Source: an uncultured Microbacterium sp.
Lineage (GTDB): Bacteria > Actinomycetota > Actinomycetes > Actinomycetales > Microbacteriaceae
Assembly: GCF_945952435.1 (NCBI RefSeq)
Contig: NZ_CAMFHZ010000015.1
Coordinates: 1 to 64,000 of the forward strand
Length of the DNA stretch: 64,000 bases
Reading direction: 5' to 3'
Made by a program: the position numbers and the translations under genes. The notes beneath the pieces were generated by a model, which searched no databases, was not told where the DNA came from, and was given only the letters and a program-made list of their open reading frames with translations. Of this stretch, positions 9,513 through 12,492 are shown piece after piece; position 1 is the stretch's first letter, and each line of letters opens with the position of its first letter.

Positions 9513-10925
9513 ATGGGCATCACGCGGCGAACCCTGCTCGTCGGCGCCGGAGCCGGTGCCGTCGCGGTCGTCCTCGCCGCGTGCACGCCCCAGCCGTCGC
9601 CCACCACGAGTCCCACGGCGACCCGTCCTCCGCGACCACGGCCGACGCTCGCCCCCGGCGCCGCGCCGGAGCCCGCGGCGTGGGTCCGCAGCGCCTGGTC
9701 GACGGATCCCTACGCCCGCGGGGCGATGAGCTACCTGCCGGCGGGGGCGACGCCCCGGCTGCGCGAAGACCTCTCCTCCGCGCTCGCGCAGCGCGTGTTC
9801 TTCGCCGGGGAGGCCACCGACCCCGACCGCCCGGGGACCGTGCCCGGCGCGGTCGATTCCGGGCGCCGCGCCGCCGCGGAGGTCGTCGCGGCTTCCTCGA
9901 GCGAGGAGCGGATCGCGGTGATCGGCGCGGGTGCCGCGGGCGCCGCGGCCGCGCGGGCCCTCTCCGACGCCGGACGCACGGTCACCGTCTTCGAGGCGAG
10001 AGAACGCACCGGCGGCCGGATCCGGTCGATCTCGGGCAAGGACTGGCCGTTCACGGTCCAGCTCGGCGCGTGGCTCTCCCCGACCGAGGACGCCGGCACG
10101 CTCGGCGGGACCCTCGCCGCCGAAGGCATCCACCGGATCGGCTTCGACGCGGCGACCGGCTGGTCGAAGGACGGCGCCGCCCCGACCGTGGACGGCGGTC
10201 CGCTGAAGGCCGCGCTCGAGCGCGCCGCGAACGCGGCGTCCGACGTCCCCGTCGACGAAGCGCTCACCGCGGCCGGCGCGAACCCCGAGGATCCGGCACT
10301 GGCCGCCGCGCTCGCCTGGGTTCAGGCGACCACGGGGGCCGACACCGCGAAGGCATCGAGCTGGTACCCGCCGTCGTTCCTCCCCGATGCGCTCTTCGGT
10401 GCGGACGGAGATCTCTCGGTGCTCGTGGACGACGCGCTCGACGGCGTCAAGGTCGCTCTGGCCTCCCCGGTCTCCCGCGTCGCGTACGACGACTCGGGGG
10501 TCAGCCTGCGGCTGGGCACGGGGGAGGCGCAGTCCTTCGACCGGGTCGTCGTCACGGCACCGCTCGGTGTGCTGCAACGGCAGGGCATCGAGTTCTCGCC
10601 CGCGCTGCCGTTCGCGCAGCGGGGCGCGATCGCGGGTCTCGCCTCGGGCTTCGTGGAGACCGTGTGGGCGCGCTTCGACGAGGCGTTCTGGAAGGCCGAC
10701 GCCGACATCTGGCACGTCGTCGGAGGGGACGGACCGATCCGCACCTGGCTCAACCTGCGGCCGGTCACCGGTCATCCCGTGCTCGTCGGGCTCGTGGGAG
10801 GACCGGATGCGGAGGCCTTCGCCAAGCTCGGCGACGACCAGGCCCTCCTCGGGGTGCGGGAATCGCTGCGGTTCTTCGTCGCGGAGACCCCCTCCCCGTC
10901 GCCGACGCCCACGCCGTCACACTGA
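9513..10925 (+). CDS. Circularly permuted amine oxidase-type FAD protein, Tat-like lipoprotein
   Basis: This 470-residue protein starts with a twin-arginine and lipobox signal (MGITRRTLLVGAG...LAAC, Cys24) and a Pro/Thr linker. Residues 57-127 (AWSTDPYARGAMSYLPAG...RVFFAGEATDPDRPGTVPGAVDSGRRAA) match the segment that normally ends flavin amine oxidases such as MAO and LSD1. Only after it, at residue 133, comes the FAD-binding start RIAVIGAGAAGAAAARAL...FEARERTGGRI. The protein then ends at ALLGVRESLRFFV, where the canonical enzyme would continue into the segment now at the front. All parts of the fold seem present but rotated. The likely activity is oxidation of an amine outside the membrane; substrate unknown. 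Confidence 0.85.
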   Translation: MGITRRTLLVGAGAGAVAVVLAACTPQPSPTTSPTATRPPRPRPTLAPGAAPEPAAWVRSAWSTDPYARGAMSYLPAGATPRLREDLSSALAQRVFFAGEATDPDRPGTVPGAVDSGRRAAAEVVAASSSEERIAVIGAGAAGAAAARALSDAGRTVTVFEARERTGGRIRSISGKDWPFTVQLGAWLSPTEDAGTLGGTLAAEGIHRIGFDAATGWSKDGAAPTVDGGPLKAALERAANAASDVPVDEALTAAGANPEDPALAAALAWVQATTGADTAKASSWYPPSFLPDALFGADGDLSVLVDDALDGVKVALASPVSRVAYDDSGVSLRLGTGEAQSFDRVVVTAPLGVLQRQGIEFSPALPFAQRGAIAGLASGFVETVWARFDEAFWKADADIWHVVGGDGPIRTWLNLRPVTGHPVLVGLVGGPDAEAFAKLGDDQALLGVRESLRFFVAETPSPSPTPTPSH

Positions 10926-11588
10926 GCCGGGGGCGGCGCGGGATCCGGGGGTGGCGCCGGATCCGGCGGTGACGTGCAGCCGGCTCAGCGCGACGAGGCC
11001 TGCCGCGACGAGGGCGAAGATCGCCAGCGCGGTCGCGCACGCGACGACGGTCTCGCCCGGCCCCGACACCTGACGCGGGTCGAAGAAGTAGTACGGGTAC
11101 CAGCCGACGATCCTTCCGCGCCAGATGGTGAACACGCCCCAGACGACCGGGTAGGCGAGCACGACCGGCAGGATCCGCCACGGCGCCGCGCGACGGCCGG
11201 GTCCGAACACCCAGGCGACGATCGTCCAGGCAGGCAGAACCCAGTGCAACACGACGTCAGACCAGGGCACCCAGATCGGCACCCCGTGCACCCCGGCCTG
11301 CCACACGATGAGTCCGAAGGCGAGGCCCGCGGTGATCGTCCAGCTGAGCACCACGGCGCGCGCGGCCGTCAGCCACGGCGGATCCTCCGCGCGGCGCAGC
11401 GCGACCATCCCTGCGACGATGGCGAGCGCTGCGAAGGCGATGTTCGACTGGATCGTGAGGTAGGCGAAGAAGTTCTGGCCGGCGATGGTCTGCGAGCCGA
11501 GACCCCAGAACAGCCGGTGCACGAGGGCGGCGGCGCACACGGCCGCGGTGAGGAGGCGCGACCAGCCGAAGGCGATCCTCATCCTCAC
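10917..11588 (-). CDS. Pr6Pr-family membrane protein
   Basis: This 223-residue protein has about six hydrophobic helices and the segments NFFAYLTIQSNI, VVLHWVLPAWTIVAWV and YPYYFFDP, which mark the Pr6Pr family. No biochemical function is established for bacterial members. The GTG at 11588 is chosen because GGAGGAGG lies about 11 bases upstream; an ATG two codons later is possible. The gene is convergent with the flavoprotein gene and overlaps it by 9 bases. Confidence 0.75.
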   Translation of the reverse strand: MRMRIAFGWSRLLTAAVCAAALVHRLFWGLGSQTIAGQNFFAYLTIQSNIAFAALAIVAGMVALRRAEDPPWLTAARAVVLSWTITAGLAFGLIVWQAGVHGVPIWVPWSDVVLHWVLPAWTIVAWVFGPGRRAAPWRILPVVLAYPVVWGVFTIWRGRIVGWYPYYFFDPRQVSGPGETVVACATALAIFALVAAGLVALSRLHVTAGSGATPGSRAAPGSV

Positions 11589-11722: not shown

Positions 11723-12130
11723 GTGTCCTCCCCCGTCCCGCTGCGTCTCGGTCTCGTCGTGGCCGGCGGCGTGATCGGCACGGCGGCGCGGATCGGCCTC
11801 GGCCTCGCCCTGCCCGCCACGAGCGGATCGGGCTGGGGAGCCGTGCCCTGGTCCACGCTCCTCGCCAACGTCGGGGGCGCGTTCCTCATCGGGGTGCTCG
11901 CCGCCCGGCTGCCGGGATCGAGCGCACGGCGGATCTTCCTCGGCACCGGGGTGCTCGGAGGGTTCACCACCTACAGCTCGTTCATGGTCGGCACGATCAC
12001 GCTGTGGGGAGCAGCCCCGGTGCTCGCGGTCGGCTACGCGATCGGCAGCCTCGTGCTGGGGATCGGCGCGGCGGCTCTGGGACTCGATCTGGCGCGCCCG
12101 CGGGGCGCGCGTCGGGGGGAGGGCGGATGA
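11723..12130 (+). CDS. crcB: Fluoride channel FluC/CrcB (subunit 1)
   Basis: This 135-residue four-helix membrane protein has the family motifs GTAARIGLG, LLANVGGAFLIG and GVLGGFTTYSSF, the last holding the Phe/Thr/Ser residues that line the fluoride path. FluC proteins export toxic fluoride as dimers. Adjacent unequal copies, as here, often form heterodimers. A TAGGCT -10 element at 11710-11715 lies 7 bases before the GTG, so the mRNA is probably leaderless and there is no room for a fluoride riboswitch. The next copy overlaps its stop by 4 bases. Confidence 0.92.
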   Translation: MSSPVPLRLGLVVAGGVIGTAARIGLGLALPATSGSGWGAVPWSTLLANVGGAFLIGVLAARLPGSSARRIFLGTGVLGGFTTYSSFMVGTITLWGAAPVLAVGYAIGSLVLGIGAAALGLDLARPRGARRGEGG

Positions 12131-12492
12131 GTCCGATCCTGTTCGTCTGCGCCGCGCTCGCCGGAGGGATCGGCGCGGGCCTGCGCTACCTGGTCGATCT
12201 CCTCGTCGCCCGGCTGGTCGGCACCCGCTATCCCTGGGGCGTGCTCGTGATCAACCTCACCGGTTCCTTCGCGCTCGGCCTCGTGACCGGCGGCTTCCCC
12301 GCAGCGGTCCTCATCGTGGGGGCGGGGCTCCTCGGCGGGTACACGACCTTCAGCACCGCGATGCTCGATACCGTGGCGCTGCGACGGGACGGGGCGTCCA
12401 GGGCGGCGGCCTTCAACGCGGTCGGGATGCTGCTCCTCGGCCTTCTCGCCGCGGGGGCGGGGCTCGCGCTCGGCGCCGCGCTCGCCCGTTGA
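12127..12492 (+). CDS. crcB: Fluoride channel FluC/CrcB (subunit 2)
   Basis: This 121-residue FluC homologue has GGIGAGLRYLVDLL, LVINLTGSFALG and GLLGGYTTFSTAMLDT, so it keeps the pore Asn and the TTFS stretch. The ATG overlaps the stop of the first copy as ATGA, which couples the two subunits. The track ORF begins upstream at 12004 only because it runs through the first gene out of frame. The pair is expected to assemble as a heterodimer in the cell membrane. Confidence 0.92.
   Translation: MSPILFVCAALAGGIGAGLRYLVDLLVARLVGTRYPWGVLVINLTGSFALGLVTGGFPAAVLIVGAGLLGGYTTFSTAMLDTVALRRDGASRAAAFNAVGMLLLGLLAAGAGLALGAALAR

Follow-up and report, generated by a model that had tools for sequence, protein, structure and literature searches.

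The closest described relatives of the protein reported here, both in sequence and in structure, are LSD2 (KDM1B) and LSD1 (KDM1A), with which it has three segments, an FAD motif and an AGE motif in common. Superfamily and motifs are also common to it and to the polyamine and spermine oxidases and the bacterial monoamine oxidases (PF01593). In the canonical order an N-terminal FAD motif is followed by a body and by a C-terminal segment that carries the AGE motif. In LSD1, PAO and related enzymes a lysine at the flavin site and its motif serve flavin reoxidation and substrate positioning; this lysine, part of a GxxxK motif, is presumably Lys661 of LSD1 and Lys300 of maize PAO.

Natural circular permutations have been described in other folds, including lectins, swaposins, an FMN-binding domain and others (PMC2395249); these are rearrangements of a like kind in different folds. 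In another study 54 circular permutations were counted among the false positives of domain atrophy, the relevant passages of which do not name the families (PMC4432964). Flavin amine oxidases were not among the permutations in the literature that was searched, which was mostly open-access, nor did that literature hold anything relevant on a permuted mono- or polyamine oxidase or on a natural flavoprotein permutation. A PDB search for a solved permuted structure returned no chain spanning the junction. Within this mostly open-access literature, a permuted flavin amine oxidase is apparently undescribed.

Segment order of the protein

The window analysed is a stretch of 64,000 nucleotides from an uncultured Microbacterium sp., and all coordinates refer to it. 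As earlier described, positions 9513-10925 of the plus strand form a single ORF of 470 codons. The features of the locus are as follows.

9513..10925, plus strand: circularly permuted protein of the flavin amine oxidase superfamily, 470 aa (ORF, Pfam, phmmer, two-profile classification)
9513..9584, plus strand: predicted Tat-type lipoprotein signal, residues 1-24 (RRTLL, lipobox LAAC, Cys24; conserved R5, R6, C24)
9585..9677, plus strand: Pro/Thr-rich linker, residues 25-55 (low model confidence, variable length, low identity)
9678..9893, plus strand: displaced canonical C-terminal segment, residues 56-127, WSTDPYARG...RVFFAGEAT...GAVDSGRRAA (LSD2 and spermine oxidase alignment, pLDDT about 97, purifying selection)
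9894..9905, plus strand: new junction of old C-terminus to old N-terminus, residues 128-131 (gap of 5-11 residues between profile matches in 103/103)
9906..10070, plus strand: canonical N-terminal FAD-binding segment, residues 132-186, IAVIGAGAAG...E...GGR (Pfam NAD_binding_8 and Amino_oxidase; beta-alpha-beta in the model)
10071..10877, plus strand: body with substrate and second FAD-binding region, residues 187-455 (Amino_oxidase profile 203-372 matching residues 301-462)
10659..10661, plus strand: codon of Thr383 at the position of the flavin-site Lys of the GxxxK motif (column in the 56-sequence alignment)
10878..10922, plus strand: new C-terminal tail, residues 456-470, Pro/Ser/Thr-rich (the end of the body is the cut point; tail unconserved)
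10917..11588, minus strand: Pr6Pr family membrane protein (NF038065), convergent neighbour (NCBIfam E 6.4e-26; 3' ends overlapping by 9 bases)

The protein matched Pfam Amino_oxidase (PF01593) with 172.5 bits, the curated cut-off being 19.8 bits, and the match was split over three stretches. In a phmmer search of the PDB the best sequence matches were LSD2 and spermine oxidase. Residues 132-171, 301-465 and 51-126 of the query aligned to residues 337-376, 533-704 and 700-775 of LSD2, which are consecutive in LSD2, and spermine oxidase gave a swapped alignment of the same kind, with the displaced segment falling on its residues 405-480. The order of these stretches places the C-terminal segment of the canonical enzymes before the GxGxxG start, as the original prediction had it, and the limits of that segment are best set at residues 56-127. 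The same alignments bore out the prediction that the chain stops about where the displaced segment would normally come next. With the AGE segment first in the chain, the protein is therefore a permuted variant of PF01593 and not a canonical member.

Both sides of the junction are strongly conserved in an alignment of 56 permuted homologues, in which W62, G70, F96 and AGEAT (98-102) of the displaced segment are all invariant, as are the key residues of the GxGxxG...E...GGR dinucleotide-binding start (residues 138-169). Compared to LSD2 and LSD1, the protein has another segment order, has no SWIRM domain, zinc finger or histone context, and carries Thr where those enzymes have the flavin-site Lys. 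It differs from the other PF01593 oxidases in having the segment at the N-terminus, in being a predicted exported lipoprotein and in its altered active-site motifs. Canonical-order PF01593 relatives are also found in the source genome (G000 C17).

Occurrence of the permuted order

Seven other Microbacterium genomes, out of 37 related genomes examined, had a full-length orthologue of 50-54% identity with an identical order. In a wider scan with one genome per species, 80 loci were recovered, which in the Microbacteriaceae came from Microbacterium, Cryobacterium, Rathayibacter, Agreia, Leifsonia, Naasia, Clavibacter, Microcella and others, and outside of that family from the deeper Actinomycetota (IMCC26207, Candidatus Microthrix, Acidimicrobiia) and the Alphaproteobacteria (Roseobacter, Pseudooctadecabacter). 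Every long frame of all loci was then classified with two profiles, one for the displaced segment and one for the FAD start. This gave 103 permuted frames, 48 canonical frames and none with the displaced segment at both ends, so that the database search for the same domain order, proposed along with the original prediction, was answered with 103 permuted loci. They span the Microbacteriaceae, other Actinomycetota, Alphaproteobacteria and other Pseudomonadota. In each of the 103 the gap between the two profile matches measured 5-11 residues, the old termini are linked, the new termini lie at one place and each part occurs once, as in a circular permutant.

A profile built across the junction was matched from end to end by permuted genes only. 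In the Actinomycetota full-length matches scored 142-191 bits and everything else at most 92 bits; in the Pseudomonadota full-length matches scored 128-183 bits. At E <= 1e-30 the gene was found in 136 of 400 Microbacteriaceae genomes and in 31 of 85 genera, nearly always over the full profile. Besides the source genome, ten of the sampled Actinomycetota genomes (n=397) had a permuted gene, and besides the seed genome it was present in four Pseudomonadota (n=399) and one of the Alphaproteobacteria (n=289). The permuted gene is common in parts of the Microbacteriaceae and sparse elsewhere.

As the order recurs in 103 loci and the displaced segment holds invariant residues, chance can be excluded. 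When compared to the closest full-length orthologue (L031), pN/pS was 0.32 in the displaced segment, 0.30 in the body and 0.42 in the linker; the closeness of the first two values indicates that the displaced segment is a working part of the protein. Judged from these comparisons, the permuted order is a real and long-lived natural rearrangement that defines a family and not a one-off. It is unusual for a large, multi-segment cofactor enzyme to be naturally permuted, and here the rearrangement is conserved across distant bacteria with canonical controls at hand. An exported flavoprotein family is thereby defined that present family models cover only piecewise.

Several candidates were rejected. 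Plasmid matches of high coverage from Synechocystis (pSYSM, WP_223211231.1) and Haloarcula (WP_284011681.1) proved to be of canonical order; in the tree they belong with the closest relatives of canonical order, and they differ from the permuted family in having the segment at the usual C-terminus, while the Haloarcula protein has a Tat-lipoprotein-like start as in the permuted members. L127, picked up by a loose regular expression, failed the two-profile test, and a match to residues 1-58 in another genome (G013) belonged to an unrelated protein with the lipoprotein start alone in common. On a contig labelled as a Bifidobacterium breve MAG (L104), the permuted gene is a near match to its counterpart in Actinobacteria IMCC26207 (L089), and the label is probably a binning or naming error.

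Origin of the permutation

In terms of the fold, the C-terminal beta-alpha unit, which comprises the final helix and the AGE motif that contacts the flavin, now precedes the first FAD-binding strand and is joined to it by a short loop, with the chain ending at the former start of the unit. Such an order was probably reached through a tandem duplication of a canonical gene, after which the first copy lost its front part and the second its tail. A plausible precursor-like arrangement was seen at locus L126 (G701 C1, about 1579000-1581100), where two canonical flavin amine oxidase genes lie in tandem about 45 bases apart; a cross-junction match at this locus (105.6 bits, with internal stops) had been a candidate permuted gene and resolved into these two genes. 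A fused or duplicated intermediate was seen in none of the loci classified (103 permuted, 48 canonical).

Several independent origins of the permuted order, each in a different canonical lineage, were also considered. In the maximum likelihood tree canonical lineages fall among the permuted ones and four changes of order are needed, and not one bootstrap tree has the permuted members as a single clade. The AU test, however, does not reject a single permuted clade (log-likelihood difference 15.0, p-AU 0.172), and the tree is weakened by long branches and mixed composition; a first tree with many long canonical branches was replaced by smaller trees. The cut site and the junction length are, moreover, identical everywhere, and since the cut site is the same throughout, a single origin is favoured. 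We regard repeated origin as somewhat unlikely.

Taken as a whole, the best explanation, and one that we hold to be likely, is a natural circular permutant of the MAO/PAO/LSD fold that probably originated by tandem duplication, would be exported by Tat as a lipoprotein and would have altered chemistry in the Microbacterium clade. The segment swap itself is demonstrated by sequence, conservation and a confident model.

Active site and chemistry

In the 56-sequence alignment the flavin-site column, occupied by Thr383 in the 470-aa protein, holds T28, K19, S3, Q2, R2 and V1. In canonical relatives the lysine is found in 18 of 19, with Arg in the remaining one, and most have a G-x-x-W-x-H-type motif. 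The permuted members of the Alphaproteobacteria and Acidimicrobiia keep both the lysine and a GASWxHG-type motif, those of Cryobacterium keep the lysine and have lost the motif, and in the Microbacterium clade the lysine is replaced by Thr, Ser or Ala and the motif by LGAWL- or LGGWL-like sequences. At the aromatic-cage position, which we take to be that of LSD1 Tyr761, the protein has Arg106; most members are non-aromatic here, and the cage varies among canonical relatives too.

Since the lysine and the GASWxHG motif are both lost in the Microbacterium clade, oxidase activity of the 470-aa protein appears doubtful. Of the original prediction of a circularly permuted flavin amine oxidase, the permuted order held, in 103 loci and a confident model, whereas amine oxidase activity is put in doubt by Thr383, which stands where a functional amine oxidase would have its lysine. 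The family overall looks like one of exported amine oxidases from which the branch of this protein has diverged. The deep members with canonical flavin-site residues would probably be extracytoplasmic amine oxidases, and the 470-aa protein, in what is the weakest step of the proposed mechanism, probably keeps its predicted FAD binding and uses another substrate or an electron acceptor other than O2.

The altered lysine and GASWxHG positions would also fit proteins of the Microbacterium clade that are catalytically dead flavoproteins, or structural or sensor lipoproteins that bind FAD. Yet purifying selection acts on both segments, and the FAD motifs do not vary. Without the lysine, flavin reoxidation is slower but amine oxidation is not lost in every case, which also argues against a dead enzyme, and we consider this alternative somewhat unlikely. 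The series from intact to altered active sites inside one family offers a test bed for the role of the flavin-site lysine.

Predicted structure

AlphaFold2, supplied with the 56-sequence alignment of permuted homologues, folded the 470-aa protein into a single compact fold (pLDDT 91.2, pTM 0.86). Residues 51-150 reached a pLDDT of about 95-98 and residues 56-127 about 97, and confidence was lower in the signal and linker and in some loops and ends. A distant Roseobacter member was modelled with similar scores (pLDDT 89.0, pTM 0.88). For both models the top PDB structures in Foldseek were LSD2, LSD1 and polyamine oxidases, with TM-scores of 0.61 and about 0.66 over about 361 columns, the aligner being sequential and the permuted piece unalignable in order. 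Such a low sequential score is expected, as about 70 permuted residues cannot align in order. The structure prediction called for at the outset thus returned one confident fold with the LSD2, LSD1 and PAO structures as its nearest neighbours.

The compact packing, the conserved W62 and A98-T102, and the secondary structure of residues 56-127, which matches what we take to be the canonical terminal segment (the strand RVFFAGE and a long last helix), suggest that these residues would occupy the canonical C-terminal position in the model. Alternatively, the N-terminal segment could be an added oxidase-tail module that packs elsewhere, for instance as a partner-binding domain, on a fold that is truncated and not permuted. 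In favour of this, the sequential Foldseek alignment covers only about 361 columns at a TM-score of 0.61. Nevertheless, the segment retains the invariant canonical residues W62 and AGEAT, no member has a second C-terminal copy, and the model is one compact unit of high pTM, which makes an added module very improbable. An assembly or annotation artefact fusing two adjacent oxidase genes or fragments, conceivable in principle where tandem canonical oxidase genes occur as at L126, has a negligible chance of being correct, given one open frame of identical order in more than 100 independently sequenced genomes, several complete chromosomes included, a conserved junction length and purifying selection on either side of the junction; the local misassembly named at the outset as a refutation is thereby ruled out.

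The permuted fold implies that a discontinuous FAD domain can become more contiguous with the fold retained, and it offers a model from nature on which permuted or split amine oxidases could be designed.

Predicted export and membrane anchoring

The Tat-like lipoprotein signal that had been predicted is supported by conserved motifs. R5, R6 and C24 are invariant in 8 Microbacterium orthologues and nearly invariant in the 56 sequences. By simple patterns, 101 of the 103 permuted members have a twin-Arg and 89 a lipobox; almost all actinobacterial members are Tat-type lipoproteins by predicted signal, the Roseobacter members are without a lipobox, and two Pseudomonadota members (L146, L147) are without an evident Tat signal. 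The Tat pathway exports folded, cofactor-loaded proteins and so would suit an FAD protein. On the motifs conserved in the actinobacterial members, the protein would probably fold with FAD in the cytoplasm, be exported by Tat and be tethered by a lipid on Cys24 through the Pro-rich linker.

Gene neighbourhood

Upstream of the permuted gene lies a Gfo/Idh/MocA oxidoreductase gene. Directly downstream, in tail-to-tail orientation, is the Pr6Pr gene, whose stop overlaps the permuted gene by 9 bases. Of the 80 loci, 63 have a related gene in convergent orientation, in most cases immediately next to the permuted gene and in many with overlapping 3' ends (4 to 170 bases, measured by frame ends); it was missing from all the deeper members outside of the Microbacteriaceae. 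A literature search for Pr6Pr found no paper naming it. That the permuted protein and Pr6Pr are functionally linked is a guess. Extending it, the permuted order may have arisen, once long ago or repeatedly, in an exported amine oxidase, and the Microbacteriaceae form may be a flavoprotein, anchored to the membrane, that has given up the oxidase site and partners with Pr6Pr, for example in the passage of electrons across or along the membrane; we offer this as speculation that is unlikely to be right in full.

Further along the window, at 11723-12492 of the plus strand, a gene for the fluoride channel CrcB is followed by an overlapping frame for a small membrane protein, which resembles a CrcB partner and gave no Pfam match with the frame limits used. 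In Candidatus Microthrix (L106) and a member of the Acidimicrobiia (L109), the upstream flanks have conserved neighbours in common that resemble, by eye, an enzyme of the nitrilase/amidase family and an aminotransferase. This may place a permuted member whose lysine is intact in a context of amine or beta-alanine catabolism.
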